Positions 1 to 24,664 of a stretch of DNA of 26,570 nt are shown here, piece by piece (position 1 is the first letter of the stretch; every line of letters begins with the position of its first letter). Source of the DNA: Saccoglossus kowalevskii (lineage: Eukaryota > Hemichordata > Enteropneusta > Harrimaniidae); assembly GCF_000003605.2 (NCBI RefSeq), contig NW_003130854.1, positions 2,089,088 through 2,115,657 of the forward strand, given 5' to 3'. The notes under the pieces are model-generated. The model made no database searches. It saw nothing but the letters and a program-made list of their open reading frames with translations, and was not told the origin of the DNA. Position numbers and translations under genes: made by a program.

Positions 1-3000
1 TTCATTGGAACTTTTCTTGTCAACTTTATCTTTCTCATCTCGCTTCTCTTTGTCGCCACCCTCTTTGTCTTTCTCCTTAAAATTTCTTTTATCGTCTACA
101 TGGTGTGTTCCAGCATCTTTTCTGGCCATTGGATGTTCCTTGTCATGTGATGCATCTCTCTTCTCATTGGCAGCTGCTTCCATTCTCAACTGAAGTACAG
201 ATGTTACAAAGATTACATCAATTTCTTATTACTACAGATACGTGTTGTCATGAATGATATATTAATTTTCAATCCTATTGATGTACGAAAATTTGACGAA
301 TTATAAGTTAATGCAATGGACATTATGTAATTATCCAAGATGTATTTATGGTAATTGCATTCCATATCTACTTCTTATGAAAACCCACATAATACAAGTT
401 AACTGCAGCAAACATACCTTATGTATCTCAGCATTAGCCTCTCTAAGTTTCTTCTTGTACCGAACCACTTCAGCTTTCAACTGTTGATTATGCGTCTGAA
501 GACTGGTAATAACGTGCCGCATTTCACGATTGATAGGACCTGTACCGTTGTGAATAATACTATGCTTTGAGTCTGAGAATAAACCACAGCACATAACTTA
601 CAGTTCCCCCAGAGAAAGGAGCAGCCTTAACCCAGCAAAACAACCCTGAACATGCCATGAATAACATCATTAGAGAAGAAACAGCGCAGAATAGAGATAA
701 TATTAGAGAGCCACCACTACACATCAGCAGGATGTTTAATGCAGTTCAAACTTATCTGTGACACTTGGAGTTAAATTAAACATAATACCGCCGCATCCAG
801 TCTGTTGCATTATACCATTTCAATAGAAGCTGCGGCTTCTAATACAGATTTTACAGTAAAGGAAATAATCTGCAGCCAGTATGCCATACTTAATGAAAGG
901 CCAAATCCATTGAAGTTTATTCACTAACAGATGTACCTCTGGGGGAAAACCTTTTTCAAGCCTTTGAGTGCCATGTTGTTACTACTAAAATTTAGGTGCA
1001 TTATTTTGTACATTTTTATGTCTGTTTCTACAATTTTGTTGTTCATTATGCCACAATTAGTAATAAATATTTAATAAAATAACGTAGTTTGATTTGTAAA
1101 GGTGATAAAAGATGACCTTGGCATTCAAAGGAATAGGGTCTGCAGATTCTCATGTTCAACAAGGCTTGGTTGAACATAGCAGTACAACACTATGCTTTTC
1201 TGCACATGCGTAAGGCTGAGAAAAAAAATATCTCTCATTTCCGCTTGCATCATTTTGAACTATGCGCCTTGGACGTTTTTTTCCTTCTAAAGCATTCCAA
1301 AATGCGCTTGTACTCACACTTGTCTCAAATTTCCCCCATTTTAGCTCAGTATAAAAAAAAAAAAAAAAAATCGCCTCGCCACCTCATTTAAAAATTTACA
1401 TGAAACGAGAAACAGAGAATTTTTTTTTCTTGGCCTAATAGTGCAGCACCAGTCAATGAATCTAAAATTGGAAAGTGTCAATGTTTTCAGTGGACTGTAT
1501 CAAACATCCTTAAAGCAAACAAATACACACAAAAACACAACGTGTTTGGGACTGACCTGCCTGCTCATTGGCTGCTATTGTCTGTTCAAATTCGATCCTC
1601 AACATTTCATACTCTTTCCGTACTTGTGCCAGGGTATCTTCCAGCTGTATCACTTCGGTTCTCAATTTCTTTTGACACGATAGTTCATCACTCTAGAAAA
1701 CAAAACACAGAAGAAGCATGGTTGTCAGTAACAACTCCTACCTGTATCAAGTCTGTGTATCAAATGTCCAATAACAAGGACTTACAGGATAAGGGTTGGC
1801 GCATCTTAGATATGCATGCACAATTAGAAGATTCCATTCTGCATGAGTGTAAAGCAAGCATAACAGAATGCAATGGATGTTTGAAAAGTTTATAAAACAG
1901 AAATGAGTATATCGCTGTATCTAGTATCTCTAGATATGTATGTTTATCTTGTGATTTTTTGAGCACCTCGCAATTTGTGCATCTTTGAGTTGGAATTATA
2001 AATCCTTGAATTTATTTCTTTGTATTTATTGTTTAATCAATTGATGTCAATTGTTTTTACACACAGTTCGTATTGGTTGTCATGTACACAAATTTGATGC
2101 CTTTAACCAAATGAACGAGAGCTCTTGAATTTTTGTAATGCAGCAAAAGCATGGTTGAGTCATAGCATTTATACAAGACATATTTTGATATGTTAGAAGA
2201 ACCTGTCAACAAATAAGCTGCTTGCTGATTGGCTTGATTGCTGGGTGTTAGGGTTGTGTAGCCAATCAGGTACAATCTTGTGAGACATTTCAACTTCACT
2301 CCAAAAGCATGCCCAATCGGTTACATCGGAGTGAAAAAAACAGTCAGTCTTACCTCCATCTGTTCCACTTGTCTAAGATGTGAGTTCTTGGTTGATTGCA
2401 GTAAAGTCCTTGTATCGTCTAATTGAGCTTTCATTTGCAGAGCCTCATTATAAAGCACTGAAAACTGAGACTGTAGATTTTTGTACTCTGGGGTCTCCAT
2501 GATCACCTCTTCAGGAATATGCTGTAACTATAGAAACAAGAAAATAGTTCATCGTTTTTTTTTTAAATTCATTGGGCATAATCTCCTTATCACTTTCGGT
2601 GATATGAAAAATATGAAAAAAAAAAAGTAAAAAAAAAAAGAAAAAAAATATGTCAAAAGTAACAAAAATTTACTTTGGGATTCAAACACATTCCTGGATA
2701 TACCAGCAAGATGCAGTAAACCAAAATAACAGAAAAATCTGGATTACAGAAATAAATTTAAAACTTACATCCATTTTGAGTTTTTCTGCTTCCTTAATGC
2801 TCTCTTGATATTTGTCTTGTACTTTCTCTAGTTCTGCTAGTCTGTTAGACGCTAGCTCTGTCTGCACATTCAACTGAGAATTCATCTCTTCAAGCTACAA
2901 GATATGGAAAGGACATTGATCTATGTTCTGGTCACTGCAAGCAAACAATCTTGTCTGCACTACCTGGACTCTAAGACAAGAGGGTATTAGTGCTGTATTT

Positions 3001-6000
3001 CACTGTGTGCTGTATTTCACTGTGTGCTGTATTTCACTGTGTGCTGTATTTCACAGTGTGCTGTATTTCACTGTGTGCTGTATTTCACTGTGTGCTGTAT
3101 TTCACTGTGTGCTGTATTTCACTGTGTGCTGTATTTCACTGTGTGCTGTATTCCACCTTGTGCTGTATTTCACTGTGTGCTGTATTTCACTGTGTGCTGT
3201 ATTTCACTGTGTGCTGTATTTCACGGTGTGCTGTATTTCACTGTGTGCTGTATTTCACTGTGTGCTGTATTTCACCTGTGTGCTGTATTTCACCGTGTGC
3301 TGTATTTCACTATTTACTTAACACCTGTAGCAGTATTGGCACATGTGACAATGCAATGTAATGCGACCAAGAAAATATTACCTAATCCAAACTTTAATTA
3401 CAGCATGCTAGAAGGTGGAGCCACAGAAAAGACACCCTAACCACAAGCTCAACTGACGCCGTACGCTTACCTTGCCCTGAGACACAGAAACACCGCCAGC
3501 GCCGCTGCTCTCTGCATCTTTGTACATTTTTAGTTTTGACAAAGCTTCACTCAGTAGATTTTCTAGCTTATCTGCTCTCTGGTGTGCTTTGTCCAAATCA
3601 TACTGTAAATTATCCACCTGGTTAATCAGCTCTGCACACTTGGTGTCTGCTGCGTGTAATTTATCTGTTTGTTCAGCAAACTGAAACAGAGAGAACACAA
3701 ATGAGAACTCTTCAATGCCCAAGTATCACTGTTTTCTGAGGTTATGAAAGACCTCTACAAAGTATGCTTAGCAAGGATGATTGATTTGTTGTCTAGCTAT
3801 AATGTATTCAAACGCTAATACCACAAAGGCCACTAAAATTTCCACTATTTGGGAAGTAAAATACAGCTATGGACACTATAGCGTTTATATTGTTGGCGTG
3901 TAAAAGGGTTTTCTGCACTTTTATCTGCAGTGAGGTGTCATGCACCAGAATCAGACATGCCCATGCAGTTTTTATCTTTTGGTATTACTGTAAAATAATT
4001 TATTTTTGCTGGAATTAATTTTCGCTTAAAAGACTTTTTGGGTGTTTCGTGTGGAATATATTTTCAATGATTTTTGATGAGTAGAATGTAAAATATTGGG
4101 AAAAATGTATATTTGCTGGATTTTATTTTCACGGAATCATTCCTTCAGCGAAAATAGCGAAAATTAATTCTAAGCGACTATTTTAGAACTCATGATCTAC
4201 AAATTTAATTTATCACTTAAGACTGAAGTATATGCAAAATAGTTGCGATGATGTTAATAATAATATTAATTATTCAAGTTGATTACTCGCAACCATAGAC
4301 TTCAAAATAACATGTTACATAACTAAGCATGAGGATTTAGAATTTAGTGTATTTAGTGGAACAAGATGATAGACTTCTATGACAGCAAAGTAAAGCTAAT
4401 GAATGGGTAAGTTATACAGAAAATTTGTGGCTAGTTATATGCTATGAGAGTGGAATGGAGGAACACACTTGTAGTATAAGAAGATGATTGACACTTACCG
4501 TTAATGAAGATGTATGATGTTTTTCTTGTAGTGATGTTACTAACGACCGCAAGCCTTTATTTTCTGTTTGCAAATCTAAATTGATTGATTTCACTGAAGA
4601 ATCTAGTAATTCTGAAAGAGAATAAAATAAACCATAGTATCCACACATTTGCAAACAAGAGAGAAAAGTTGATGAAAAGGTAAAATTTTATCATTTTTAG
4701 AAAAACGGTCAATGTGCTTAACATATTTTTTTACATTTATATTAAAAGGGGGGAATCGTCACCTGCGCATGCATTGTTGTTTACAAACAGGCATCTACCC
4801 ATAAATCTTTGCAATTTTAGTGTGCGTTTTATCGTCGCTTGGGACTCAATTATTGCACATGCGCAGGTGACGACCCCCCTCTGCTTTAAACTTGGTTCTG
4901 TTCCTAGTTACTCATCAGTACTTACCATTATTTTGTATTGATACCGATAATTGTTCGTTTTTTTGTTGAACATCATCAAAAACTTTAATAAGCTTGGCTA
5001 TTGATTCTTTGGAGAAAGTTGACCTCTGCTGCAACTGCTGTTCAATTTCATCAGATTCGCTACTAGACAACAGCGTTATAAATGATACTACAGCTTCATT
5101 TTCTACCGAGAATATGGAAAAATACATTACGAAATTAGTAAAAAATGAAGATCAATCGGCCATCTTGCTTTTGTTTGAAAAATGTTAACTTTGGAATTGT
5201 GTGATACTATAAAATACTTTATTTTAGCAGGGATTAATTTTTGCAAAAAAGATTTGTTGGGTGTTTTGTATAGAACTTATTTTCACTAATTTTTGAAAAG
5301 TTGAATGTAAAATAGGAAAAAATAAATTTGCTGGATTTCACTGAATCAGCCCTTCAGCAAAAATTAAAAGTGTTACACAGTAATTGCATGAAAGTTTCTA
5401 AAACAATAGTTCAGTAACATATCTAAGTAAATTTGGCAAGATAAATATTAGCCAAAGTGTTTCTCAATAAATACTACAGGCACATTAACCTCCTTGTCCC
5501 AAATTAAACAATATACTGTAAATCAATTCATTATTCACAGGGTTTTAATTTCCCTATTTTCGCTGATAAGTAAAATTAAATCTACATGAATATGTAAAAT
5601 AACAATAAAACTCATTGTTGTCTTGACAAATATGTGAAATTAAAACACAGTGGACATGCTCAAAACACTAAAATAGTGAAATTAAAAATCTGCGAAAAGA
5701 AATGATTTTATATAGTAGCCATGAATCGTAAAAAGTTCCCTAAATTTTTACTAAATTTATCTAATTCATAGATTATGGAGGCATATTACTACCATCTGGT
5801 TCTCATTATTAGCATTGTTATTCTTTGCACTTATTTTCACATGTAACGAATGTTTAGTTTCAGCCAAATTTTACCCCATATCTTTAAAATTGCACTTGCT
5901 CATTACACCAAAATTTAACTCGATTGACATTGCATCGTGACAGATAAAATTTCCAAATTCTAAGATGATCAGATAGAAATTGTTTGTGTTATTTTAACCA

Positions 6001-9000
6001 CAAGAAGAAGACAACTTTAATTGAAAATATTTTGAAAAATATACATGGTATATGTACCATAATCAAACTTGTTAATATAATATCTAAGTTTGAAAGATAT
6101 TGGATAAAAAATGTTTGACATATTCTTGTAACCACAAGAAAACATTTTTACAATGGAGTCAACAACAAGGACTAACATTTCCCCCCTCATATTCCTTGTG
6201 TTTCATGTAGGATAATATGGTGCTGACACAAAGTTTTTTATTTTTATTTCAAAATTGTCAATTTTGCTTCTATTTTGATTTTTCATGAAAATGTATAAAA
6301 TGAATATTTTTTTGATTCAACAACAAACACTGTTCCTACCTTTTGTTAGTTTGTCTTTACTTTCCTCATCACTGGCACTTGACTCAATTTCATTTTCTGT
6401 TTTCTCAGAGTTTGACTCTCCTTCAATATTTAATTTCTCCTCTGTTGTCTCTGACGTGACCTCCTGACTGTGGTCATCAAACCTTTTGAGTAGCACACCA
6501 ATGTCTTCATCAAGCTGAAAACAATATCACTCAATTATATTACATGTATGTTATATAAGTCTCCCTTCAGACAACTCGGTCTTCTTGAGCACAGTTGCTT
6601 TTGAAGGAAGGGTCAACACAGCTACATGTATATTGATGACTGCGTAGCAGTAATGTACACTTACAGCAAGCGGACTTTCCTAGACACTCAAGTAGAAGCA
6701 ATATTGTTACATACCCACCTACTACGCCGTCTTTCATGGACGCACATCAAAGGCATAATGCAGTGTTTTGTTATCAGTTAATCAAGGGCTCAGGAAAGTG
6801 TAAGGGGATGCTGCACCAGGTGTAGGAGTTAGGTGTATGTAAATATCTTATCGTATATAAATTTAACATCACCCTACATGGCACTTTATGTGGAAACAAA
6901 ATTAGTTCGAAAAAATTAGACTGAATATTTTTTTTTTCCCTTCACAATACTGAATGTACTACAAATAATAAATCTTTTGCTTACACATAAAACACAGCAT
7001 ATGTTAAAGCTGTAGCATGAACCAAGCGAATGTCACTGGCAGATTAAATGACAAATGAAACGTCAGATAACGTGAGAACAGTACCAGTAAAATGTTTAAT
7101 AATTAGGATAATGGCATCAGTGGGGTCACAAAGACTTTCACAAAATGAGAAAAACTGTTCACAGCCACAAAATGTCACTATTTCTCAAAACAAAAAAAAT
7201 GTGTCTCTCAAAAAATGACATTAATTCACAGTTTCTTCTTACCTGAGACCAATATCTATTGAGTAAACATAACACTGCTTCATCATTTCCTTGTCTCCGT
7301 TCTAATCTCTGAATTCGATCTCTTAAATCTTCCTCCACAGTTTTTCGCAATTCTAACCGATCTGCAAGTTTCTTGTTTTGAAATTTCAATACTTTGATGT
7401 CCATTTCTTCCTATAATCAAGGCAAAAATTGATATTTAAAAAAATCATCCTTTAAAAACACAATACAAGTAATTGTAGTAGGGCCATTCCTGTATTTTGC
7501 ATGCTTTCCCATATAAAATGATTTGTACTCAATACTATTGAGGCACCAACAACAAAAACGACAAGCCAAGGACGACATAGTCCCTGTTAGTTATCAAACT
7601 TAAGATATATAATTTTGTTAATAGGAATATAGTTAACATAAACATGTCAGAGATATGGATCCAGAAGATGATGCTTGATTATGGTGATTTTTCAACACTG
7701 AAATGATCATCTTGTATCTGATCGTCGAACGAGTACTTGTCCATATTGAGAGATATTGCTGTGAAACAGAATTAATTAAAACAAAATAGCCATTAGTAGT
7801 TTATTTTGAATACATCAGTACATCTATGACATATGGCCCCAGTCAGTCATTTTTAATCTGATCTGTAAAAACAAAACGACGTGCATCAAGGTTCTATAAT
7901 GTCTAACGTATGCACCAAGTTTGAACAAAATCCATCAATAAATGCTTGATTTTTATGATTTTTCAAGCACAAAATCGGCCACCATTTAGCCATCTTGAAT
8001 CAGATCGTGAAACAAATTGATGTACAAATGTATAATATTATGCATGATGTATGTGTGAAGTTTGAATGTAATCAGTCCAGGCATGTCTAGGATACAAACA
8101 CACGGACGGTCAAACCATAAGTCTCCATTTGCATTGTGTGTGGAATTATTTGCAGACGTACACTTAAATTTTTTTTAAATAAACCATTTTGTCTTGAAAA
8201 CTACAAGCATACATTGTATGAGTTCCCAATATCACAATAAGAACGTTAGCCCAGCCGACTTCTGAGAAATTTTGTTAATTTTGAATCCAGACTTTAATAC
8301 ATTAGAAGGGCATAGGTTATTATACTACAATACATGCATGGAAACATTGTTCTCAGATAATTATTATATAGTATACTGTTAAAGCTTAATTAATTAATTT
8401 GATCCAGCAACAGCATTCAGGTTAAGCACAACACCAGTGGTGAAGTTTTGTGGACAGTACTCAAATCCGCCCAAATTACAAACAAGACTTTTATTCTGAT
8501 AATATGATCTGATTATCTGCCCCCCCCCCCCTAAATGATACAAATTCATTGTTAGAATAATAGGTACACCCAGTAGATCCAATCATAAATTCAAAGGCAA
8601 GCTTTGGTCTTGTGCCCAAAATCATGACACAGGGTCAACCTGTTCTGGAACAACTGATCATTCAATCAAAGATGTTAATTCAATAGGTGATTTTTCAAAG
8701 TGCCTTCGAGGTTGTCAAATCTCACTTGATAATTTGATGCCACTATAACTTTTGTTTGTCCAGTTTTTATTTTGTGCATAATGCGGGACTTCGCAGTGAA
8801 CACATCTGTAAGTTACGTCATGTGACAGTTATGTCACAAATTGGGTTTATCTTAGTCGGTTTCAGTTCCCCTCTGATGACTAATCTGTTCCATTCATGTT
8901 TACATTGATTGAGTTCAGGTGAAAGCCTTGCTGTGTTTAGTGGCACCTAGCTGCCATGTAGTTCATACAATACAAAAACTTAGACATGTTGTGGTACTGC

Positions 9001-11543
9001 TGCCCACTCAAATAAAAATGGTCATTTGTGTCAAGAGAGATTTATCAAACAATACAATATCCTTTTTAAAATCCTTTTTCATTTGCTTTGCTTTCTCACA
9101 CATCCAGTACAATATTGTTAATATATATGGACTAGGCATCAGAAAGTATAAGATTAAGACTAAGCTGTACACATTTCAAAATCTAATCTAAAATTAAATG
9201 TTTCACAAGCTTGGCTATGTTCACATTACAAGATCTTGGCCTGTGCTAATATTTATTTAAAGCTTATAGATCTGAAAGTACTGTACTGTTAATTGTTTTT
9301 CAGACTTGATAATTAACCAGAACAAATAAATGTTGCTACACTTTCATATATTCAAACTGTACACAGATAATTAACACATTATAACCCTCAATAAACTTGT
9401 ATTTGCTGCACAATTATAACTAGGCTCTACAATGTAGAAACCCAGAAAAATAGCAAAGAATTTCAATGGAATACATTAATAATCGCTAATGCATTCATTG
9501 TAATGCTAAATTGGATTCATTGTTTATCTAGTTGGGAATCCCTGCTCTATAGTGCCCTGGGGAGAACCTTGTAAAAATAACATTCAGTTTTAAAAAATAT
9601 TAACATGACTGATTGTTTACCTACACTGTTGTGCAAACAATATACAGAAATTATTAGATCCACATATACTCGTAAACAGAAATGACAAAAGATGTGTTTA
9701 AGGTCATATTTGAATGACCCAATATAATATGTTTTTTTTTTTTTGCATTATGTACGTTTGAGATGATGCTTCTATAATAAAGCAAAGACTGATGGGATTC
9801 CAGTTGCAATATTATCTTCTACATTGCCTGTCTAGGGTTTGAAATTATATTTTGTAGCACCCTCAGTGTTCTCCCCAGGCCTTTCAAGCACTGCGGGCCC
9901 GCGTCGCTTAGACAAACAGCCGCGTCGCTTTTGTTTCGCCCGCGATCCATGAAATCCTGCCCGCGATGCTTATTCACGTTGTATTGTTTACAAGTGTCAG
10001 CCTCGTCTAGCACATCTTTAAAACAATAACATGTATTGATTGAAAGGTAATCCCGCCTTTGTACATAGTTAGCCTTACAAAAACAGTGATAAAAACGGAA
10101 GTCTACAAGAAGTTACCAAGTCTATCAAGGGTGCGGAGCTGGCAAACCCCAAAATACTAAGGTAGTAATAATTTGCCCATTGCGTCGGGATAGTCTATCC
10201 CGAGTTGCTGCACTGCGATTAATTGCGTTCTTACTACTTCATCGCCAGTGACACTAATTACCAAGAATTAAAAAAACAAGTGAAATTAAGTCGCATCTAA
10301 AAAAAAAACTGTAAATAAATCGAAGTAAAAATTTTTCAACTGCAGACGAGGCGGACAAGGAAAAAACGAACCCTGACCTCTAGAAATACCTCATTCATAG
10401 TGCGTCATTACCGAGGAACGCCACTCTAAGGCGTCATTATTGATTTATTAATTTCTTCATACAGATTTTACAAATTTAACAAACAAATACCCCCACCCCC
10501 ACCCCCCCGTCGTATGAACTGACAGTAACATTGGCACTAAAACTGACTGCACTTGCACACAAAATAATGATGAACCAGTTACCTCCACGGATAAACAATA
10601 CATTTACTGACTGGCTATAAGTATTTCCATTTCTTTCCTGTTCTATTTCAAACTTTATTTGACTCGATGCACACATAAAACACAATGAATGTAAATGATA
10701 AAAAATATATGAGATATGTATCTCTTCTTTATTTCAGTTATAATGTTTGTTGGGGAAACTAATTATTATGCAAACAAAATTATGCAAATAAGATGTATTG
10801 TTATGTAAATTAGCCGCGATGCTTGGCTTAGAGTCTGGGGAGAACACTGACCCTATTTCAAGGTCAATCTCACTCAAGACGCCATAGAACTAATAAATGT
10901 CCGAACTGTTATTACCATATTCTCATGTTGTAATTACATCTGTGCAAGTTGTTCCCGGTAATTAAAACGAACTCATGTAATCTTCCGTTCACATAATGCA
11001 AGTTTACTGTGGCACTCAAATTCTGTTTAGAATCTGCATTTACATCACTTGATGCCAAATCATCACCGTGCTAGTCCTTTCCAAGGGGGCCCTATTTAAT
11101 TCTACCATAATCAAGCCCCTTTATGAAAATGCAATGCAATCACATCTGTTTTTAAGCAGGTATGAGTAATATGTAATACTTTTTTGAGTGCTGATCATAC
11201 CCCCCCTCTTCAAGTGGCCTTAAACTATACTTGATCCCTTTTACGCCAATGTAAGTTATATTGGCTAAAAGAAATAAACAAACAGATGTGAATATGATAT
11301 TTGAAGAACACCAGGTTAGTCAAAAGAGGTATCTAAGAATTCAGAGCATTCATAAATTATGAACCCTGTCTGCAGTGTGTATGCTCAGACTAGTAATTGT
11401 ATTACTAGTCTGAGGTGTATGCGACTGTTTACCTGGGATGATACAGATCCCAACTGCACAGGGTCAAATAATGTCTTCTTCGTTGGAGGTGTTGAAGAGG
11501 ATGTAGACTGTTCCATCTCACTTGCTGGTCTCTTGGTCGCCAT
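1..11543 (-). CDS. BRE1: BRE1-type E3 ubiquitin ligase (RNF20/RNF40 orthologue), N-terminal 567 residues, 3' partial
   Basis: Known role of the family: nuclear E3 ligase that works with RAD6 (UBE2A/B) to monoubiquitinate histone H2B, which promotes H3K4 and H3K79 methylation. Coding exons in transcript order: 11543-11433, 7410-7243, 6514-6340, 5102-4926, 4611-4499, 3680-3471, 2894-2769, 2527-2354, 1692-1557, 539-418, 189-1. Every boundary has AG/GT, and the sum is 1701 bases (567 codons, open throughout). Landmarks against human RNF20: Ser/Thr-rich start (1-37), 'IQRLERRQ' and 'LLNRYWSQ' (38-93), an acidic Glu/Ser stretch (~94-151), 'LLSSSESDE' then coiled coil (152-360), '[19 protein letters not shown]' (361-418), '[20 protein letters not shown]' (419-463), 'GPINREMRH' with 'RYKKKLREA' (464-504), and a Lys/Asp/Glu-rich stretch (505-567) running off the edge. 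The ATG at 11543 follows a pyrimidine-rich acceptor and matches the family N-terminus. The C-terminal coiled coil and C3HC4 RING should lie beyond base 1. Whether this is the single pre-duplication invertebrate gene is inference. Confidence 0.93.
190..417 (-). other. BRE1 intron between residues 504 and 505
   Basis: Donor GTATGT at 417-412; acceptor TGTACTTCAG ending at 190. No repeat or coding segment is seen in it. Confidence 0.8.
540..1556 (-). other. BRE1 intron, 1 kb, no feature beyond an A-run
   Basis: The intron separates the exon encoding '[11 protein letters not shown]' from the one encoding 'GPINREMRH'. It holds an 18-base A-run at 1353-1370. The plus-strand open frames here do not resemble any protein. 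I see no other structure. Confidence 0.7.
2991..3310. repeat. 17-bp minisatellite, about 19 copies, in a BRE1 intron
   Basis: Tandem unit TGCTGTATTTCACTGTG, 17 bases, nearly perfect over 320 bases. Variants are point changes (CACAG, CCACCTTG, CACGG, CACCG) and one 18-base unit (CACCTGTG). Because 17 is not a multiple of 3 and the unit has no stop in any plus frame, all three plus frames stay open and give false '[17 protein letters not shown]' proteins. The array lies in the 576-base intron 2895-3470. Confidence 0.97.
3986..4190. repeat. TACTGTA-ended palindromic element, copy 1
   Basis: Starts TACTGTAAAATAATTT and includes GGAATTAATTTTCGC near the left end and GCGAAAATTAATTC near the right end, which are reverse complements. 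Best match in the window is copy 2 (5204-5382), which shares the interior (TTTTTGGGTGTTT, TTTGCTGGATTT, CCTTCAGC). Non-autonomous inverted-repeat element, no coding capacity. Right boundary approximate. Confidence 0.65.
4756..4873. repeat. Short inverted-repeat element with 16-bp arms (TCGTCACCTGCGCATG)
   Basis: TCGTCACCTGCGCATG at 4756-4771 is exactly inverted at 4858-4873; the match continues outward imperfectly through G-rich/C-rich runs (GGGGGG.. / ..CCCCCC), giving an element of about 140 bases. Each arm holds an E-box-type CACCTG and a partial NRF1-like TGCGCATG. It lies in the 314-base BRE1 intron 4612-4925. No target duplication is obvious. Confidence 0.65.
5204..5382. repeat. TACTGTA-ended palindromic element, copy 2
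   Basis: Begins TACTATAAAATACTTTATTT and ends TTACACAGTA, so the ends form an inverted repeat. Interior resembles copy 1 closely (GGGTGTTTTGTATAGAA, TTTGCTGGATTT, CCTTCAGCAAAAATTAA). Located in the BRE1 intron 5103-6339. Confidence 0.65.
5514..5716. repeat. TACTGTA-ended palindromic element, copy 3
   Basis: Starts TACTGTAAATCAATTCATT and ends near TATATAGTA. It carries CACAGGGTTTTAATTTCCC on the left and the inverted GTGAAATTAAAACACAGTG further right. It is the same general family as copy 5 (16703-16914) and sits 130 bases from copy 2. Confidence 0.6.
5717..6339 (-). other. Remainder of BRE1 intron, no recognisable feature
   Basis: AT-rich intron sequence between copy 3 of the palindromic family and the exon encoding the acidic Glu/Ser stretch. 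No open frame resembles a protein and no clear repeat is seen. Confidence 0.6.
6515..7242 (-). other. BRE1 intron, 728 bp, no recognisable feature
   Basis: Lies between the exon ending 'YWSQ' and the one starting '[12 protein letters not shown]'. Ordinary AT-rich sequence; I see no repeat, hairpin or coding segment. Confidence 0.6.
7667..8020. repeat. Two diverged copies of an ~80-bp intronic repeat, ~275 bp apart
   Basis: 7667-7745 (ATGCTTGATTATGGTGATTT, then ATCATCTTGTATCTGATCGT) resembles 7941-8020 (ATGCTTGATTTTTATGATTT, then CCATCTTGAATCAGATCGT). A related piece, TTTTAATCTGATCTG, occurs near 7850. It probably comes from an old transposable element that ends near ACAAACACACGGACGG (~8095). 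Class not recognised. Confidence 0.5.
8779..8803. repeat. Solo end related to the 269-bp inverted-repeat element at 20317-20585
   Basis: AATGCGGGACTTCGCAGTGA is close to the right end of the 20317-20585 element (AATGCGAGATCTCGCAGTGA, followed in both by ACA). No matching inverted partner is seen nearby, so this is a fragment or diverged copy inside the large BRE1 intron 7411-11432. Confidence 0.4.
8804..9863 (-). other. Large BRE1 intron, middle part, no recognisable feature
   Basis: AT-rich intron sequence upstream of the 986-bp element. CCCTGGGGAGAACCTTG near 9555 resembles that element's right end and may be a solo end of a relative. Nothing else is supported. Confidence 0.45.
9864..10849. 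mobile_element. 986-bp non-autonomous DNA transposon, TIR CAGTGTTCTCCCCAG, 5-bp target duplication ACCCT
   Basis: CAGTGTTCTCCCCAG (9864-9878) is exactly inverted at 10835-10849. The flanks are identical 5-mers, ACCCT at 9859-9863 and 10850-10854, as expected of a target-site duplication. The subterminal 11-mer CCGCGWYGCTT occurs at 9899, 9920, 9961 and 10814, all in the same orientation. Internal C-rich run at 10490-10508. No transposase frame is seen, so it depends on a partner. Ends and duplication length suit a hAT-like element with short duplication; Transib/RAG-like elements also give 5 bp but start CAC. Superfamily is inference. It lies in the largest BRE1 intron. Confidence 0.8.
11384..11414. 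repeat. Perfect hairpin, 14-bp arms and 3-nt loop, 18 nt past a BRE1 donor
   Basis: CTCAGACTAGTAAT (11384-11397), loop TGT, ATTACTAGTCTGAG (11401-11414): arms exactly complementary. In the BRE1 transcript it begins 18 bases after the donor of the first coding exon (GT at 11432-11431). It could be a small insertion footprint or affect donor use; no evidence separates these. Confidence 0.75.
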
Positions 11544-11565
11544 AGTGATCTTGTGGTTTGCTGCT

Positions 11566-12100
11566 CTAAAGAAATGTACAAAATAAAGTTTGGTGAAGTC
11601 ATAGGTCAATGCGAGTGGTGTACATTACAAACATGATGCGACATATCATCACAACATTTGGCAATGTGATCTGTATATTCAGAAACTTGTGCATCTGACA
11701 CATAGATTCTACTCACAATCCATATGCGAGTACCGATTAAGCAAAACAAACTCGTATCCACTTTCTAGTACACAACTAGGGTGACAGCACTAATTAGTTA
11801 ATGGAACCACTGCGCGTGAGAAACGTAGCCTATATCATAATCATAGACGCTGTTCGAACCCATTCATTTATGTAAAGGAAATCGAGCCCGTTTCTCGCAC
11901 ATAGAACATTTCTATGTTTGTGATTTTCGACATGCATCTTCGGCAATAATTCTTATTTGCAGTGTGCACAATTTTGGTACGTTCCCTTGCCATTTTACCA
12001 ATAAATCAGCCAAAATTGTTGGAGCCCGGACAAACTTACCGTAGCAAAGATGGTAGACGCTCACCCGGATGTCAACCTGTCAACAATTACTTCCGGGTGA
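11566..12100 (-). other. BRE1 non-coding first exon (3' end at 12040) and 5' UTR intron
   Basis: On the minus strand a near-ideal donor (ACG|GTAAGTTTG) follows base 12040. A strong acceptor (ACATTTCTTTAG) ends at 11566, so the second exon begins at 11565, 22 bases ahead of the BRE1 start codon. The intron is therefore 12039-11566 and the first exon is untranslated. Its 5' end cannot be seen; I place it within the ~100 bases above 12040 because the opposing gene starts at 12176. The upstream in-frame extension to 11609 would read through the acceptor and is not used. Prediction from splice signals only. Confidence 0.6.
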
Positions 12101-12175: not shown

Positions 12176-15100
12176 ATGGCTGAGATGAGGAAGCGTTACA
12201 CCCAGGGTTCTTCCCAAAGCACTCAGACTCAGTATGACCAAAATGAAATGCCTGATATCCAAAATGTTACGGAAGAACAGAAAGAGATGTCACTCAAGGA
12301 AAAAATTCAGCTGATTGATCAAGAGATCCTTTTGCTGCGTAGCTTTTGCTTGCAGTCTGGTTACAGTCAAGGAGAGATTGAAAGCTGTGCCAGTCCGCTC
12401 CTCGATTTTCTGACCACGGCTAATCGGAAGAAGTGTTTATCAAAAGTGCTTAAACTGGTTCTTATTTTATCAGTTGGGTTCTTTTTGTATAAATATGACC
12501 CAGCCTACAACATGATTCGTGTTGGTGCAAGACAAATGCAACTTCAGGTACAGTCAGTCCGTCGGAAAGGGTACCCCTTCCCTCCAGTGTACATGCCTCT
12601 CCCAGGGACACCTACATGTATAGGGGGTGGGGTGGGCACTCGGGGGGGGGGTTAAAGTTAAGATTAGGGGATGGGGTACAAAAGGAACTTTTTTCCCAAA
12701 CGAATAAGGTTGTGTAACTTGTGCTATACCATTTCAGCCACTAAGCATACGTGTAATACAAAATCACATTTACAGGATATTAACAACCCAGGCTGATAAA
12801 TAGTAGTTTTGTGAATGAGGTGTTCACATTCCGATCATAATATAGTTGTATCTATTTTTGCGAAAATTAATAATTTGTCTAGCATTAATAGCAGGTGTGT
12901 TATTAATTTTCAAGATAAGTCATATTTTAATATTACAGTTTGTATACAATGAAAGAAACTGTTGGCCTACAATGCATTTCTATTGAAGATTTGCTTTTGA
13001 TGTAGAGCAAACACTGTACCTCTGATTTGGAGATAGTTTTGCAGCAGATTGAACACTGTCATGGCTACTCAATGGATTAGTGAACACAATAGGAATCTCA
13101 ATCAACAGAACTTTTGAAGAACTCATGAACAATGAATCTTCCACAATGTTCAATCCATTGCTGATTTATGCGATTGACTTTGGCACCTGATTAGTTAAAT
13201 TTGTAGATTAATACTCCTTATTGTTACTTCAATTACCTCCATGGTATATCCATTTTTGTAATTGTCTTTGTTTATAATGTTTTTACAGACTTTGCCTTAT
13301 TGGGACTGGACTCATTGGTTTGATGACAACTGTATTGTTAACAATCCTTTTTATCAGGAAGAACGTTTGTCAAAATCCGATTGCGAAGTAAGAACAAAAT
13401 ACATATTAATATCTATATCATCTCTCTGAATGCAAAGACAGTAATCTTTCTGCCACCTTCAAAGATTGACACCTTTATCAGCATGTGCTAAAAGCATGTA
13501 CATGTATAAACTTGGCTATTGTTTCTGGCTACTAAACTGTTGTTGATGTGACAACACAAACTCACAGACATTATGACCATATGTCATTGTTCTTGAGAAT
13601 CCGTAGATAACATAATGTCATAATCTCATTGTACTGAGTTTGTGTTGTTTTTGGGGAATGACAAAATGGATGATGTCATTACATGTGTATGCAGGTATAA
13701 TTCCTTTTATTAGATGCACATCTCATAGTTGCAGAGAACCCCAGCATGTAGTCGGTGATTGATTGAAACTTGGATGTCCTTGTTTCCATCATCTAAATGA
13801 CATCAAGAGTCATGATTTAAGCCTGTCCACCTGTCCCAGGCAGATTTTTGAAATTAGAAATAGAAAATTTTCACTAACTGTCCAAAAAATTGCAGGGCAG
13901 GTACATCATCAGTTGGGACAGACATTTTTATTTTTTAACCAGTCCAAAGGAAAGGCGACTTTAAATTTAAATTTCATTCCCTGAGACTATAGAACCTGTC
14001 CTTGCCATAGATGGTTGTAATGTAGATACATGTATTACCAGGTAAGAGATCATTCAGAGTGACTAAAGTGACCTCGCATCAAGAATGGATATGTACATGA
14101 AACATACCTGGGATTGCAACAGAAATCAACAACACTCTGTACCTTGTACAAGAAATCAGCTCTGTTATTGTTGCTAAATTGACAATACTTTGGATGTAAA
14201 ATCATTATTAGACAAGTCTGTTTCGGGTGATTCTGTGGTGCGATATTGATATGTACTTCAGGGACTGGCCAATAATTATTGAGGTTTATTTCAGGGGTGT
14301 GCTGATATTGATGAGATAGAAAGAGAGGAAGAGTTGACCCATGATGATATGGCGCAAACTTTCTTACTTGCATACATACCATTAATTATAACAGACGCTA
14401 TCCAGGACTGGAAAGCGTACAAGATTTTCGACACGGAGTATGTCACGAAAGTAAGTATATCCTATAGCAGTTGAGTTCTGTCCAACAACAGCATGCTCTT
14501 GGGCTTTGCCTTTTGAAAATGGCAGGAGAGAGAAAAATAGCTCTCCTAAAACCACTGAGGCATGTTATTAGAATGATTTTAATTTGAAATAATGTGTAAA
14601 ATGGGTAATATTTTGCACCAGCAATCGAACGGAAAGGTCCACAGATTCCAAGCTACTCTGTTCTACCCAGGCCTTTCAAAAATTAAAAATGTGATGCTTG
14701 ATATTTTGGAAAAATAACACATCTTTCATACACTAATAATAGTATACACTACAGGTACTCTTGAATGTTCTGCTGGGGGAGAATACTGAATTTAGTACCA
14801 TATTGCATCACCTATAAGCCGTATTTTACTGATTCTGCNNNNNNNNNNNNNNNNNNNNNNNNNNNNNNNNNNNNNNNNNNNNNNNNNNTTTTATTATTAG
14901 AGGTGTATTACATTACATGTGTATGGTACATGTGGGGTCAAATAATCAAGTTTATGGTATGACCCGAATATATAGTCTAGTGTTTTAAATGATGTTGTTT
15001 CCCATCTTTTTAGTTGTTTCTTGAAGATCCAGTTCTGAGTGCCGGCACTATTTGTTCATTCTATAATGAGAACGTTAAACATAAGTATGTGAAAGATGTC

Positions 15101-16459
15101 TTGCGATCAATTGATAATGGTACAACAACACAATGGAACATGCATTGGCAGAATTGTATGGACACGGCGAGGAAAACATTTCGAAGGTTCTACAGTAGAC
15201 CTTATTGTATTCCCCCTATGGTTGAAATGATGAATTCAAATTGGTTATTCATGTCTTCTGGAGTAAACAAACAACAACTATCTAAACTACCTTATGTGCG
15301 GGTAAGTTGATAAGGTGTGCTATTTATAGATGCATGCAAGATTATCTCAGATTCAACTGATTTGTTATTGACATTAAGTGTTAAAGTTGAAAGCTCTCAA
15401 ATCAAATCTTGAAGTTACAACATTCAAGATCAAAATTTGATGTATTGTGCCATTTATCGACGAAGTTATTGTTTGTCTTTACTACACTAAATCCCATCAT
15501 GCATTGCTGTTCAAATTGTGCTTTGGATGCTCACTCAGAAAAAATAACCCAGGAAGTGTATTATGTTTGTAAAAGGAATCCATATCTTCAGAGAGTGATA
15601 GATAGAAAGGCAATAGTATGTCAAATCGTTTTTAGTGTACAAAAATTCACTGCTAAACATTTCGTTGTCACCTGATGGTTAACAGTCTTGTGCCACATAC
15701 TGTACTTTATTTTTACTTGGAATTTATTTACACTGTAGGGATGAATGAGGGAGAAAAAATCACTTTCATACAAGACAGCCCAAATCAGTCTTTTCAGTGA
15801 TAATTAATTCCAGCTAAAATAGTGTAGTTCACAGTATCTTTTTACCCATACAGATTGAGACTGATTGCACAAAACAATTATTAAATACAAAATTATAAAA
15901 ATATTTTCTGAATGTTATAGCTGTTTGAGTCATAGTATTGTTTTTTTTCTGTTCAGTCTCTTGACACTGGTGTATCTATGACATGGTTTGCACAACTGAA
16001 AGGTAGTTATGAGATCAAATTAAAACCCCATGAAATATGTGAAGAGGATTGTGAAGTTATGACAGCTATTCTACAACCCGGAGAATTACGTGAGTTCACA
16101 TATTACTTCCTGTGCCTTATCTAAGATAAGTACATCATGTTGCGTGTTTTTTTTGCTCTCTTAAAAAATAACTAAAAAATACAATGCTGCATAGACAGTG
16201 TTGATTTGTCTCAAACCCCAAATGGCCACTCCACCCACACAATAAAACAATGATTAATTCACAAATCATTGTTACCATTAAATCAGCCTGCACATGTAAT
16301 TATGTCAGTTTGTCACATGGCCTATCAATTTCCACCTGTCATTAATATGGATTATTTTAACTTTCAGTGGTGTTCAGCAATATCATGTGGAAATTTGAAT
16401 TCCGTGTGGCCAGCGAGAAAGATGTCATCGCCATTGCAGCCAATGGTAACTGGGACTAA
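12176..16459 (+). CDS. C6orf89-like (bombesin receptor-activated protein-like) single-pass membrane protein, copy A
   Basis: Six exons: 12176-12547, 13289-13387, 14295-14450, 15014-15301, 15957-16089, 16368-16459; 1140 bases, 379 residues plus TAA, all GT/AG. Layout: polar N-terminus (1-38); helical region (39-85) like the C6orf89 N-terminus; one membrane segment (~91-106, VLKLVLILSVGFFLYKY) with basic residues before it, suggesting a cytosolic N-terminus and lumenal C-terminus; WDWTHWFDDNC (exon 2); PLIITDAIQDWKAY (186-199); WQNC and 'SRPYCIPPMVE' (exon 4); MTWFAQLKG (313-321); CEEDC (333-337); PGELLVFSNIMW (346-357); ends at NGNWD. Human C6orf89 is a Golgi membrane protein of about this length that shares the N-terminal region, a W-x-x-D/N-D-C motif, GC, a C-x3-C and PGD..W. 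The lumenal half also resembles Cupin_8/JmjC folds but lacks the iron ligands. No enzymatic role is claimed. A 50-base gap lies in intron 3, not in coding sequence. Copy B lies tail-to-tail downstream. Confidence 0.85.
12548..13288 (+). other. Intron 1 of copy A, with a C/G-rich inverted repeat at its start
   Basis: Right after the donor, GTACCCCTTCCCT (~12570) and AGGGGATGGGGTAC (~12665) form an imperfect inverted repeat around a G9-10 run (12643-12652). The exon 1 frame runs on to 12655 across the donor, which would end in Gly repeats and lose the conserved WDW segment, so the donor after 12547 is used. The rest of the intron shows nothing. Confidence 0.6.
13551..13648. repeat. 98-bp inverted-repeat (hairpin) element in intron 2 of copy A
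   Basis: ACAACACAAACTCA (13551-13564) is exactly inverted at 13635-13648. An inner inverted pair, GACATTATG and CATAATGTC, extends the pairing, so most of the element can fold. No coding capacity. Likely a small MITE; boundaries may be wider. Confidence 0.6.
14839..14888. other. Assembly gap of 50 N in intron 3 of copy A
   Basis: Exactly 50 N, which suggests a placeholder of unknown true size rather than a measured gap. The flanking exons 3 and 4 join in phase and match copy B exon for exon, so no coding sequence needs to be missing. Confidence 0.95.
15698..15836. repeat. TACTGTA-ended palindromic element, copy 4
   Basis: Left end TACTGTACTTTATTTTTACT, right end the inverse (AGTTCACAGTA); TTGGAATTTATTT on the left pairs with AATTAATTCCAGC on the right. 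It is a shorter member (139 bases) in intron 4 of copy A. Confidence 0.6.
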
Positions 16460-20132: not shown

Positions 20133-23100
20133 TCAGTCCCAATTTCCATTAGCAGCTAATGCTACGGCATCTGCACTTCCCGATACTTTGTATTCCAATA
20201 TCCACATGTCATTACTAAATACCACTGCAAGAAATAAACCGAGAATTATACATGCACGTAACAATTTGACGAGACGAGAATAATATGAGTGACATTGAAT
20301 ACAAATAACATGTAAGTTTCTGTTCACTGCGAGATCTCGCGCTATGTGTGAAATCGAACTGGAAAACAAATCTCATAACATCTCGTGTGATACGAGCCTA
20401 ATAATGTGCTAAACACATTTGATGAAGGTCAATTTTGATGAAGTAAGGACGCGATATTTCTATCGGAAGAATGTGCATTTCGACATTGAACTATAAAGAG
20501 AGAAATTGAAGTTCAAAATCAAATTAGTCGATTTTTGCGGCAGACGTTCGATTCGCATTATGCGAGATCTCGCAGTGAACAGAAAATCACCCATTACTTA
20601 CACATTTCGCCTGGATTCAGAATGATGTGTACTTTATGACAAATGTCGGTACATACTGCATTCGGTATTAATGTAATGAGGTAGTTTCCTTTCAGCTGGG
20701 CGAACCATGTCATAGTGTGCGCCATCTCATCCGATGATTGAAAGCCCATAATATTATAAAACTTAAAAGAAGAAAGTGATAAAAGTTAGTGGTCAGTTAT
20801 TTAAAACAAGTCATGAAACAATGGAATGTACAAACTGAGGGGTTTACCTTCAAGCTGGTACACGGTTGCTAAATAAGTTATAACATATAGGGACAAATTT
20901 GAGAATGATTCCATGTTGAGTATACTCTCTATAGCAACATATGAATCTTTGGAAGCGCCATTAAATGTAGAAAACTGAAATTAAGATTCCCGATTCAGAG
21001 TTAAGACAGAAATTAAACTTGCAAGTACTGTGACTATGGTACAATAATATTGGTAGTAGGAGTGTTAACATGTTTAGAGGTTAATCGCGGCAATACAGGG
21101 AACATGGCAAATGGTTGCTTCACTCCTTTCACTTTCATTGAAGATGAAAACAAAAGAACGGTATGATTTATTTGGAAAATGTATTAGAATGTTTGAAAAA
21201 AAAAAATTATGATTTCATAAATAATTCCGATTAAGCATGAGACGCACCTTTTTAACAACACATTTTAAATAAGTTAATAGACTTGTCATGACTAGTATAT
21301 ACGTTCAGAATGCGATTATTGTTTGCAATTCATAGAACGGGTTTGACTTTTGCCTAAAAACAATGTTTCTGATCAAAAATCATGAAAATAAATAAGCCTG
21401 AACATATTTTATCCGATTTTTTGCTAACTGGTGTTTTATGAATCGAAATAAACAACAGTAGTTGAAGCTACAAGTATTTCTAATTGAATTTCTTGTTAAG
21501 TAACCGGGATTAAACTGATATATTCATTTATCAATGTTCAGTCAAAAGTTATGTATAATAAACCGTGTCGGGGCTAACATTTTGCAGCATGTACTAATTA
21601 TGTAAAACACATACAGCTATGTAAATTGTTTTCAATTAAAATAGTTTTCCCGAATCAGTTATCAGGGTAACGCAACATATGACGTCATTCTATTCGGAGC
21701 CAAAGATTATATAAAACCACAATCGATTTATAGAATCTTCGCATGACTATGACGTCGTTGAATTCAATACAATAATATAGTGCCAATAATATGGCCCATG
21801 CCTACATGTGCCTACACTCAGATTATCACCACAACTGATAAACTCCTATAAACTTGTATATAAAAGTTAGCACACATACCGTAATACGGTTATATTGAGA
21901 CTCGAACGCAGTCACATCTTCCACGTTATAACCAGATGTTAAAACCAACCAATTGGAAGACCCAAACTCAACCATAGGAGGCATGAAGTAAGGTCTCGTG
22001 TAATACTGCCTCAATATCTTGACTGCGGACTGTGCACAGTTCTGCCAGTATATATTCCAGTGCTTGTTTGCTGCCATCCCTCGAAGTACGTGCAGTAAAA
22101 ATGGATTGTCTGGGTCCATACTGACCACTTTACACAGATACGATGTGCTCAGAACTGGATTTCTAATGAATAACTGTAGGAAAAGTCATAATGTGTCGGA
22201 GTGAATAGTTATTACGTTTCCGTTGATATATTAGTAACAATTTTTGAGAAAATATAACTTCCAGAGAATTATTGTCCAATGCCGGTACGTGCAAAACGAC
22301 ATGTGTAGCTGTATTGACATTGAGGTAACATTAAACTTCTATAGTTTGTTATTCTAATCACACGACATGACCTGTTATCCAATCAGAATCGAACAAGCAG
22401 TCGATTGTAAGCCATAACAAAGTTTATTCTCACCAAGACAGAATAATTCAGCAATCGAATTAAGTTGTGCGTATAGCCGAATAGTACTAAATAGACTGAT
22501 CTAATTCTTGCGGATTACACCGCAAAACCGATGTAGACTCATTACCTATTCCCTAATAAATGTATTATATATGTTCACAACATCTATAATTACCTTTGCT
22601 ATGAACTTTGAATTGAACTGTCTATACGCCTCCCAGTCCTTTACTGCATCAGTTACAATAACAGGTGTATTTGTGTGTAGATATTTCGTCATTTCCGCTT
22701 CGGTTACGTCATTAATTTTAATAGGTGTCATAAACTCCTCACATGTCTAAAATGTAGAAAATAATATCTATCCATTTTTGTTAAAGAATAGAATATGGCT
22801 GACCAAGAAAATTGCTCTCGATAAGAAATAATATGATTCGCTCATGAAAAAAAAAGTTAGATACGTATTGGGTCATAATAAATGCACGATATATGTAACT
22901 GATGAAATAAACGAAACACTCCGGTCCAGGTAACCATCTGCTTGATTTAAAACTACATGAAGTTTTGTTGCTTTAACACCAGGGAAGGTAAACATGTATC
23001 GTATTGCCGGGTGATATTGACGGAAAGCGGAAGTGTATAGTTTTTGAGGACAACGTGCATAAATATTAGACAATAATATAATCCAAATAACGTAATATAA

Positions 23101-24664
23101 TGCAATACGTCTTACAGTTCTGGTTTCTTCTTAACAGTTATGTCTTACCTTGCAGTCAGATTCATTGAGAGATTTCGAGTTCTGATATGGGTTGTACACC
23201 AGGCATTTATCTGCATACAGGTAACGCCAATCCCAGTATGGAAGTGTCTTTGAAAACAAAACAAAAAGTGACCATTCAATGCATGTACGTTTATTAGTTA
23301 CTGCTGCTACATCCTACCAAATCGTAACTAATTTTCTTCTCAAGAAGTTATTGTGGTACGGTCTAAATTGCCTCCACGTCGTTAATGTTCAGACTTCCAT
23401 ATAAAAGATAAAATTTGTCGATGAATATGGTTTACTTATTAATCTCATTCGATATACTTTACTTGTTTTACTTATATCATTTGTGCACTGTTTACATAAC
23501 AATATAACAGATTCAATCATTTAAATTCTACACGCCTTAACTGAAATGTTCTACCTTCCCTGACATATGTACATTTATCGATACCCCAAAAACTCAGTGG
23601 ACTCAGGTAGTGAGTAGCGCTACTTGCCACGAGTGTTCTGCTCATTCGTTGTGCTGTACATTTCAAATATTTATTAAACACTAGAAACTCCTCTCTAGTT
23701 AGCAGCATTGTTTGGAGTATCGCAATTAACTCTTAATTTGGACTGTTTGGAATAAAATATTCACGTCTTTTTTCGAAACACCTGTCTCACGAATATTTGT
23801 CCCAACGTGCTATGATTTAGTACATATCATAAGAAGTTGATTTGGCGATCGTTGTAGTAAATACTGCGTAGGTAGTCATGGTGATTCGTCATTCATATAT
23901 TAGCAATCCGATAACATAGATTCTAATTTTACAGCGTCCGCGATTTACATATTATGGGATAGCTAATAACAATGAGAACATTTCACGTCGTCATGGTTGA
24001 ATAATCATAGGTAAATACATGCGCAGATATTGGTGCACAAATGTACGTTTTCTATTTTCAACTTACCACAGATGTACATTGTCCTATGCAAATATATTTC
24101 TTTTATGTTATCGATAACGAGCCATTGCTCGCACCGTCTAACCATTTTCAATAGTTACTTAAGACAATGTTTGCAAAACAATTGCACGTCAAGTAATATT
24201 CAAGTAAAAGTGGTCAAGTTACTAGTGAAACTAGCATACTCTATATAACATACATCGCTGGAATACTGATGATAAATAAATCATTCAACATTATTTTTCA
24301 ATTATTCGAATCTTACTTTTAGAAACGTGATCCGGATGAAACTACAAATCAATTGATACGACCAGCTGCAATAGCAGAGGATAATGCCGACAACGAGGGA
24401 GACTGCTGCCACTTTTCCGTACGCTATCAACTTGGCAATGTTAGCTTCACGGATTACACCAAATATTGGGCTATAACATGCACCGATATCATCGACACTG
24501 AACCCAGCCTTCACGCAGAACTCGTATAGATCCACCATATCATCTTCGATTAGTTGTAACTTCTTTTCCGTTGTCAAACACTTTTGATCCTCAGTGGCTT
24601 CAACGATTACTGGGACGTCAAAACTATCCTCGGTGGTGGGTTTCCTGCATCTGAGTTGAGACAT
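20133..24664 (-). CDS. C6orf89-like single-pass membrane protein, copy B (inverted paralogue)
   Basis: Six exons in transcript order: 24664-24317, 23247-23149, 22746-22594, 22173-21880, 20761-20602, 20224-20133; 1146 bases, 381 residues plus TGA, all GT/AG. Exon lengths are 348/99/153/294/160/92 against 372/99/156/288/133/92 in copy A, with the same phases. Layout: polar N-terminus, helical region 32-76, membrane segment ~81-99 (AYGKVAAVSLVVGIILCY), TLPYWDWRYLYADKC (117-), PVIVTDAVKDWEAY in exon 3, WQNC and 'TRPYFMPPMVE' in exon 4, MTWFAQLKG (315-323), CTDIC (335-339), PGEMLVFSNDMW (348-359), ending NGNWD as in copy A. The ATG at 24664 gives an N-terminus like that of copy A; the codon three upstream in frame is TTG. 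Exon 5 has 27 extra bases at its start. Divergence is greatest before and within the membrane segment. No frameshift or stop is seen, so the copy looks functional. C6orf89 family membership is by motif and is moderately sure; paralogy with copy A is very sure. Confidence 0.85.
20317..20585. mobile_element. 269-bp inverted-repeat element with 24-bp perfect ends, intron 5 of copy B
   Basis: The 24 bases at 20317-20340 (TTTCTGTTCACTGCG... ending in GATCTCGC) are exactly inverted at 20562-20585; similarity continues inward imperfectly to about 45 bases (ATG.G.GAA.TCGAAC). Each arm contains the self-palindrome GCGAGATCTCGC. No open frame. No clear target duplication. It fills most of the 377-base intron 20225-20601. 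A related solo end lies at 8779-8803. Confidence 0.7.
20762..21879 (-). other. Intron 4 of copy B, no recognisable feature
   Basis: Bounded by donor GTATGTGTG (from 21879) and acceptor CTTCTTTTAAG (to 20762). AT-rich; no repeat or coding segment is supported. Confidence 0.65.
22747..23148 (-). other. Intron 2 of copy B
   Basis: Bounded by donor GTAAGAC and acceptor ACATTTTAG. Contains a 66-codon minus open frame (22873-23073) without resemblance to any C6orf89-like exon and without suitable flanking splice signals that I can see. Confidence 0.6.
23248..24316 (-). other. Intron 1 of copy B, no recognisable feature
   Basis: Corresponds to the 741-base intron 1 of copy A. A 63-codon minus frame at 23517-23708 has no counterpart in copy A and would not fit between 'FLK' and 'TLPYWDW' by homology. 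Confidence 0.6.

Follow-up and report, generated by a model that had tools for sequence, protein, structure and literature searches.

A convergent gene pair of Saccoglossus kowalevskii predicted to encode membrane-anchored JmjC-like proteins that lack the iron-binding histidines

We analysed a window of 26,570 nucleotides from the hemichordate Saccoglossus kowalevskii (contig C2261, positions 2089088-2115657, of the 572-Mb, 4830-contig assembly G000) carrying two related genes, here called copies A and B, whose products we compare with oxygenases of the Cupin_8/JmjC type. Copy A has six exons on the plus strand (12176-16459) and a product of 379 amino acids; copy B runs on the minus strand from 24664 to 20133 and its product has 381. 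Both gene models are predictions from genomic DNA, and the exons of copy A have GT/AG borders (Table 1). The genes form a convergent pair with identical exon phases on splicing. Their products are 38% identical overall and 42% identical after the membrane segment described below, with MTWFAQLKG and ANGNWD unchanged between them; the invariant columns after that segment include seven cysteines and no histidine. We take A and B to be paralogous. An earlier sequence-only reading had delimited the feature as 14295-16459, which corresponds to exons 3-6 of copy A and misses the beginning of the gene model at 12176. Its residue numbers are exact in the spliced products, both for A (PLIITDAIQDW at 186-196, MTWFAQLKG at 313-321, PGELLVFSNIMW at 346-357, and D308, T309, G310 and K358) and for B (E310, M311, A312 and I360). 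Intron 3 of copy A contains a 50-base run of N (14839-14888).

Hydropathy reveals a single strongly hydrophobic segment in each copy, at residues 87-105 in A and 79-97 in B. In copy A this segment reaches a Kyte-Doolittle 19-residue maximum of 1.94 and is immediately preceded on its N-terminal side by RKK. Both products are probably single-pass membrane proteins with the C-terminal domain facing the lumen.

The Pfam Cupin_8 model (PF13621) matched copy B over residues 166-195 only (E 9.9e-4, 19.5 bits; curated cut-off 27.4), and a genome-wide search with Cupin_8 gave 21 exon-level matches, one of them an exon of copy B (E 1.27) and none in copy A. Sequence searches of the PDB returned nothing for A and, for A and B together, one RNA polymerase match (E 0.37) that we judged to be due to chance. 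Because these searches were weak or empty, we built a profile of bacterial Cupin_8 proteins. Fourteen bacterial loci were translated, and the nine proteins with near full-length matches were used (L024, L034-L039, L050 and L051); five were excluded, L040, L044, L052 and L053 as partial or distant matches and L033 because it and L024 are one gene. Using hhalign, the A+B profile aligned with the bacterial profile over 185 columns with a score of 64.5 (probability 95.1, P 3.3e-8). Column shuffles, 150 in number, had a mean score of 15.4 (standard deviation 2.7, maximum 25.7), and reversed profiles scored 14.3 and 13.4. The N-terminal 209 residues alone scored 51.2, residues 210-379 alone 26.8 and residues 283-379 alone 26.4, against null maxima of 21.9, 23.4 and 19.9, respectively, each from 60 shuffles; all three part-profiles aligned at the expected place with the order of motifs kept. 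Among the nine bacterial proteins, the best BLASTP match to either copy had an E of 5.9e-6 (A with L051, 53 amino acids); fragments of five further Cupin_8 genes from the same genome matched weakly (best E 0.006), both values being for small sets. From the profile comparisons we regard the domain of A and B as very probably homologous to the Cupin_8/JmjC fold, the kinship that the sequence-only reading had proposed.

Searches in other collections brought no further relative. A and B together gave 33 pattern matches in a viral contig collection and 318 in a genome contig collection, with no relative in either; part of A found nothing among plasmids; and A+B gave one match in PHROGs, to a family of unknown function (E 0.28), and none in NCBIfam. 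Three of the bacterial Cupin_8 proteins had no match in viral contigs and matched in 8 of 149 genomes of one phylum, from which no new gene was used, and another search with one bacterial protein against phages gave one partial match that was also left unused.

We located the iron site by the distance in residues between the HxD His and the strand Gly in FxQxxG, a spacing that varies among JmjC proteins. It is 15 in JMJD6, in the JMJD4-like gene of the same genome and in the bacterial L034, L037, L039 and L051; 13 in the JMJD5, JMJD7, C1595, C892 and C1645 genes of the same genome, in human JMJD5 and in L024 and L036; and 19 in L035, L038 and L050. The bacterial profile is thus composed of two members with spacing 13, four with 15 and three with 19. 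FIH (HIF1AN) likewise has a spacing of 13. In both copies, the ten residues preceding the strand scored positively with five of the six spacing-15 sequences, and with none of the eight of spacing 13 or the three of spacing 19; L039 is the exception within spacing 15, with scores of -5 for A and -10 for B. Of 10000 shuffles, 17 for A and 109 for B reached the spacing-15 mean, compared with 1851 and 7428 for the spacing-13 mean. By eye, the spacing-15 register puts EMAHTMTWFAQLKG of copy B alongside DLGHTAAWNAQVTG of L034, and hhalign sets D308 on the Asp, across a two-residue gap. Because of the spacing-15 scores and the hhalign register, we predict that the first iron-binding His has been replaced by Ser in both copies (S306 in A, S308 in B) and that the acid ligand is kept as D308 or E310. 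The sequence-only reading had used FIH as its template and put the HxD pair on D308-T309-G310. This register is two residues off, and we set FIH aside as a template in favour of the JMJD6-type spacing. An intron at the HxD position common with JMJD7 was considered and rejected: the JMJD7 intron is in phase 1 within the codon before the His, and that of copy A is in phase 0 after R305.

The place of the distal His falls on K358 (A) and I360 (B) in the bacterial register, as had been proposed, and on F359 and L361 in the register of the C505 gene described below; none of these residues is His. In JMJD6 the iron ligands are His187, Asp189 and His273 (PMC5352680). The place two residues after the Gly, where JMJD6 has a Lys, is occupied by Y323 in A and Y325 in B; in fly JMJD7 this place holds Lys190, which binds 2-oxoglutarate (2OG) (PMC9001643). 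No HxD/E...H triad was found in A or B in any register that we tried, in agreement with the sequence-only reading, whose wider statement that the iron ligands are lost holds for both histidines and fails for the acid. The stretch from FxQxxG to PGE measures 16 residues in A and B, with a conserved C-x3-C inside, as opposed to 35-45 residues in all nine bacterial sequences. The consensus of the C505-type family likewise has a short loop with C-x3-C, and the loop is probably ancestral.

The nearest relative of the two copies lies in the same genome. Using copy B, tblastn gave two weak colinear matches on contig C505 (E 0.185 and 0.9), which belong to a JmjC-like gene on the minus strand at approximately 154-187 kb (L070, L071 and L074). 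Its exons are widely spaced, the first two that were read lying about 14.7 kb apart. The first exon is long and carries NCDIC, the Cupin_8 entry motif (Pfam E 0.016, under the cut-off) and, by eye, a hydrophobic stretch; the other upstream exon ends in DWIFMGGSGIGANIH, followed by GTATGT, and has a His at the first iron site (GANIH). This sequence matched B and A by BLASTP with E of 1e-15 and 2e-14, values from a two-sequence search only, and by hhalign with P 1.2e-12. In the whole genome, with E up to 10, tblastn of the two upstream exons found only themselves and the two copies (E 3.9e-4 and 0.0063). The last exon, VVDTNIWYHSTYVTPGEISITIGSEYD followed by a stop, was located with a C505-type consensus (E 1.7e-7) and contains NIWYHST, with a His at the distal site (W-Y-H). 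If this exon starts at the preceding AG, it is in phase 1 and the Trp is its seventh full codon, as in A and B; no donor was seen on the other side of that intron. A MAFFT alignment of A, B and the C505 sequence with an X run misplaced the last exon, and the exon-start anchor was used instead.

The C505 gene resembles A and B in its N-terminal hydrophobic stretch, the NCxxC stem, the entry motif, the pattern W..W.NC...RPYFLP...WIFM, the start point and phase of the last exon and the ..D-stop end. It differs from them in the His at both the first and the distal iron site. To judge from these exons, the C505 relative appears to keep its iron-binding histidines at both readable places. A C505-type middle segment had a single match in the genome, to copy B exon 5 (E 0.154). 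The assembly of the C505 gene is interrupted by a gap of 5.5 kb or more, which may conceal the catalytic middle exon.

An HxD motif and a distal His are both present in five other Cupin_8/JmjC genes of the genome that were readable in both halves: C310, C662 and C2886, which are JMJD7-like, JMJD5-like and JMJD4-like, respectively, and C892 and C1595. The C1645 sequence has an HQH pair and a distal His, and its translation matches Cupin_8 above the curated cut-off. For C892, C1595 and C1645 the distal His was read in a separate exon; of the remaining Cupin_8 matches of the genome search, some were read for a single half of the site and the others left uninterpreted. C1645 carries a tandem pair of Cupin_8 genes (L027 and L028, approximately 550-566 kb) with a hydrophobic N-terminus that looks by eye like a signal peptide, and the HQH of its second copy is an Asp-to-His change of the kind reported for JMJD8. 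L029 (C892, HFD) and L030 (C1595, HYD), both with the distal His kept, resemble the C1645 group by eye.

Taken together, A and B are probably membrane-anchored and probably lumenal pseudo-JmjC proteins of the JMJD6-spacing type, derived from an ancestor that was probably active. The canonical Fe(II)/2OG chemistry has very probably been lost in both. Under this proposal the ancestor would have been a membrane-anchored 2OG oxygenase, and the first iron-binding His would have been lost before A and B duplicated, because Ser stands at that place in both copies. The domain would now be a JmjC barrel holding neither iron nor 2OG and incapable of canonical Fe(II)/2OG binding, and the present proteins would bind a lumenal client or pair with an active relative. 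Whether A and B act by binding is a close call that we place a little short of even; pairing with an active relative we consider unlikely. The pseudo-oxygenase of the sequence-only reading thus survives as the simplest explanation of a triad-less Cupin_8/JmjC domain behind an N-terminal hydrophobic segment, without its FIH template and with the acid kept.

Known proteins resemble A and B to different degrees. FIH is a Cupin_8/JmjC protein with an FxQIKG strand; it has a 13-residue spacing, is not known to have a membrane anchor, and is a poorer fit than the JMJD6 type. Oxygenases of the JMJD6/JMJD4 type have in common with A and B the 15-residue spacing, Trp six residues and Ser or Thr nine residues before the Gly, and the PGE strand. 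JMJD6 has HID...H (PMC5352680), whereas the copies have SxD or SxE, no distal His and a hydrophobic segment. JMJD8 is described as a JmjC protein of the lumen of the endoplasmic reticulum (ER) that has His in place of the iron ligand Asp and is suspected to be inactive (PMC5684140). It resembles A and B in the lost ligand and the suspected inactivity, and may by analogy be a precedent for an inactive lumenal JmjC protein. It has a signal peptide and HxH, while A and B have a hydrophobic segment after about 80 amino acids and S-x-D/E with both histidines gone.

Four other explanations were weighed. If the JmjC likeness were purely local, confined to the entry motif PxIxTDAxxDW, the remainder could be an unrelated fold, and residues of about 160-210 are indeed the strongest part of every profile match. 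However, the C-terminal 97 residues alone beat all 60 shuffles and align first with the FxQxxG strand and then with the PGE one, and a relative has W-Y-H at the expected place in a last exon that begins at the same point, so that a purely local likeness is highly improbable. It is likewise very unlikely that the FIH register is correct, with the HxD His at D308/E310 and the Asp at G310/A312. The WFAQLKG of the copies is close to FFAQIKG in FIH, and anchoring on FIH with no gap leads to exactly that register, but the spacing-13 sequences scored zero or less with both copies while five of six at spacing 15 were positive, hhalign sets D308 on the Asp, and members of spacing 13 make up only two of the nine in the profile.

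The domain might alternatively still be an enzyme that carries out a non-canonical reaction, with new residues (the acid at D308/E310, another acid, a Lys, a Tyr or a conserved Cys) binding a metal or a different substrate. Both copies keep an acid at the ligand position, and MTWFAQLKG and ANGNWD are identical; yet beyond the membrane segment the two copies share no conserved His, the iron-binding histidines are both replaced, and so is the residue at the place where the 2OG Lys usually stands. We judge a retained enzymatic activity to be unlikely, if the most serious of these alternatives. The loss of both histidines could also mean that A and B are decaying genes, in which case ligand losses would say nothing about function. 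This is scarcely credible for copies that are 38% identical yet have kept their reading frames open, agree in exon phases and contain long runs of identity.

Several observations weigh against pseudo-JmjC proteins in the lumen. The anchoring and the lumenal side of A and B are predictions from hydropathy. Pfam Cupin_8 has no match in copy A and stays under its curated cut-off in copy B, and no JmjC chain turned up when A or A+B was searched against PDB sequences. When the bacterial set was split, L034, L037 and L051 scored 33.2 and the other six 52.9, and neither alignment reached the C-terminal half. The C505 middle exon would hold the acid together with the 2OG Lys; it was not found in the sequence read, which left out about 156050-160500 and is N from 160500 to about 166040, so a full triad in this relative is putative. 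Finally, since the C505-type consensus also has the short C-x3-C loop, that loop is no sign of inactivity.

Elsewhere in the window, positions 1-11600 of the minus strand hold coiled-coil exons, divergent from copy A, that look like a gene for an E3 ligase of the BRE1/RNF20 type. Pfam gave nothing or weak matches below cut-off for three pieces of this gene. A 17-bp tandem repeat, GTGCTGTATTTCACTGT, occupies 2990-3311 (18.9 copies, 95% matches) and is open in all three plus-strand frames.

Table 1. Exons and predicted sites of copies A and B, in window coordinates
Feature	Position	Strand	Remarks
Copy A exon 1	12176..12547	+	Start codon and N-terminus; hydrophobic segment, aa 87-105, at ~12434-12490 (splicing, hydropathy)
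Copy A exon 2	13289..13387	+	Stem TLPYWDW...C139...SDC156E; these Cys kept in copy B
Copy A exon 3	14295..14450	+	C159; Cupin_8 entry motif PLIITDAIQDW, aa 186-196
Copy A exon 4	15014..15301	+	WNMHWQNC ... RPYCIPPMVE ... NWLFMSSG, strand preceding the HxD position
Copy A exon 5	15957..16089	+	S306-L-D308 (predicted HxD position), MTWFAQLKG strand, Y323, C333-x3-C337, PGE
Copy A exon 6	16368..16459	+	VFSNIMW K358 F359 ... ANGNWD stop
Copy A SLD	15957..15965	+	Predicted S306 for first iron His, acid kept as D308; JMJD6-type register
Copy A Y323	16008..16010	+	Putative place of the 2OG-binding Lys (Gly+2)
Copy A K358-F359	16391..16396	+	Distal iron His would fall on either residue: K358 in the bacterial register, F359 in the C505 register
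Copy B exon 1	24317..24664	-	Hydrophobic segment, aa 79-97, at ~24374-24430
Copy B exon 2	23149..23247	-	Stem TLPYWDW...
Copy B exon 3	22594..22746	-	PVIVTDAVKDW; stretch matching Pfam Cupin_8
Copy B exon 4	21880..22173	-	Splicing
Copy B exon 5	20602..20761	-	S308-D-E310, MTWFAQLKG, Y325, C335-x3-C339; exon start is one acceptor choice
Copy B exon 6	20133..20224	-	VFSNDMW I360 L361 ... ANGNWD stop

The sequence-only reading had called these proteins C6orf89-like. The human C6orf89 sequence that we compared is approximate; it has CxxxC...PGD...WK in common with A and B. It matched copy A by BLASTP over residues 262-358 (97 columns, 25.8 bits, E 0.001), and by hhalign scored 23.2 over 41 columns, where 60 shuffles gave a mean of 15.0, a standard deviation of 2.4 and a maximum of 21.2. 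Against the bacterial Cupin_8 profile it scored 17.6 (P 0.17). The match is limited to a C-terminal stretch and lies far below that of A and B to the C505 gene. C6orf89 would fit in the same family as A and B. The sequence kinship is weak and does not establish orthology, and the name is to be read in that light.

C6orf89, also known as BRAP, is described as poorly characterized; mice in which it is knocked out resist lung fibrosis caused by bleomycin, and their connective tissue is reportedly less tough (PMC9275683). A potential catalytic region has been cited for its C-terminus. We found no article containing both C6orf89 and JmjC in the open-licence PubMed Central (PMC) literature, and a description elsewhere or in structure-based domain databases is possible; C6orf89 and cupin do occur together in one article (PMC12866310). 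Tentatively, and with somewhat less than even confidence, we propose that the whole C6orf89/BRAP family, the human protein included, may consist of pseudo-JmjC proteins of the Golgi or ER lumen whose ancestor was a membrane-anchored 2OG oxygenase still kept by some invertebrates, as in the C505 gene, and that these proteins may regulate or chaperone clients of a lost or separate hydroxylase. Should the lumenal domain in this family prove to be a dismantled JmjC oxygenase, the question would shift from the reaction it catalyses to the partner it binds, and the C505-type relative would provide an active reference for direct comparison.

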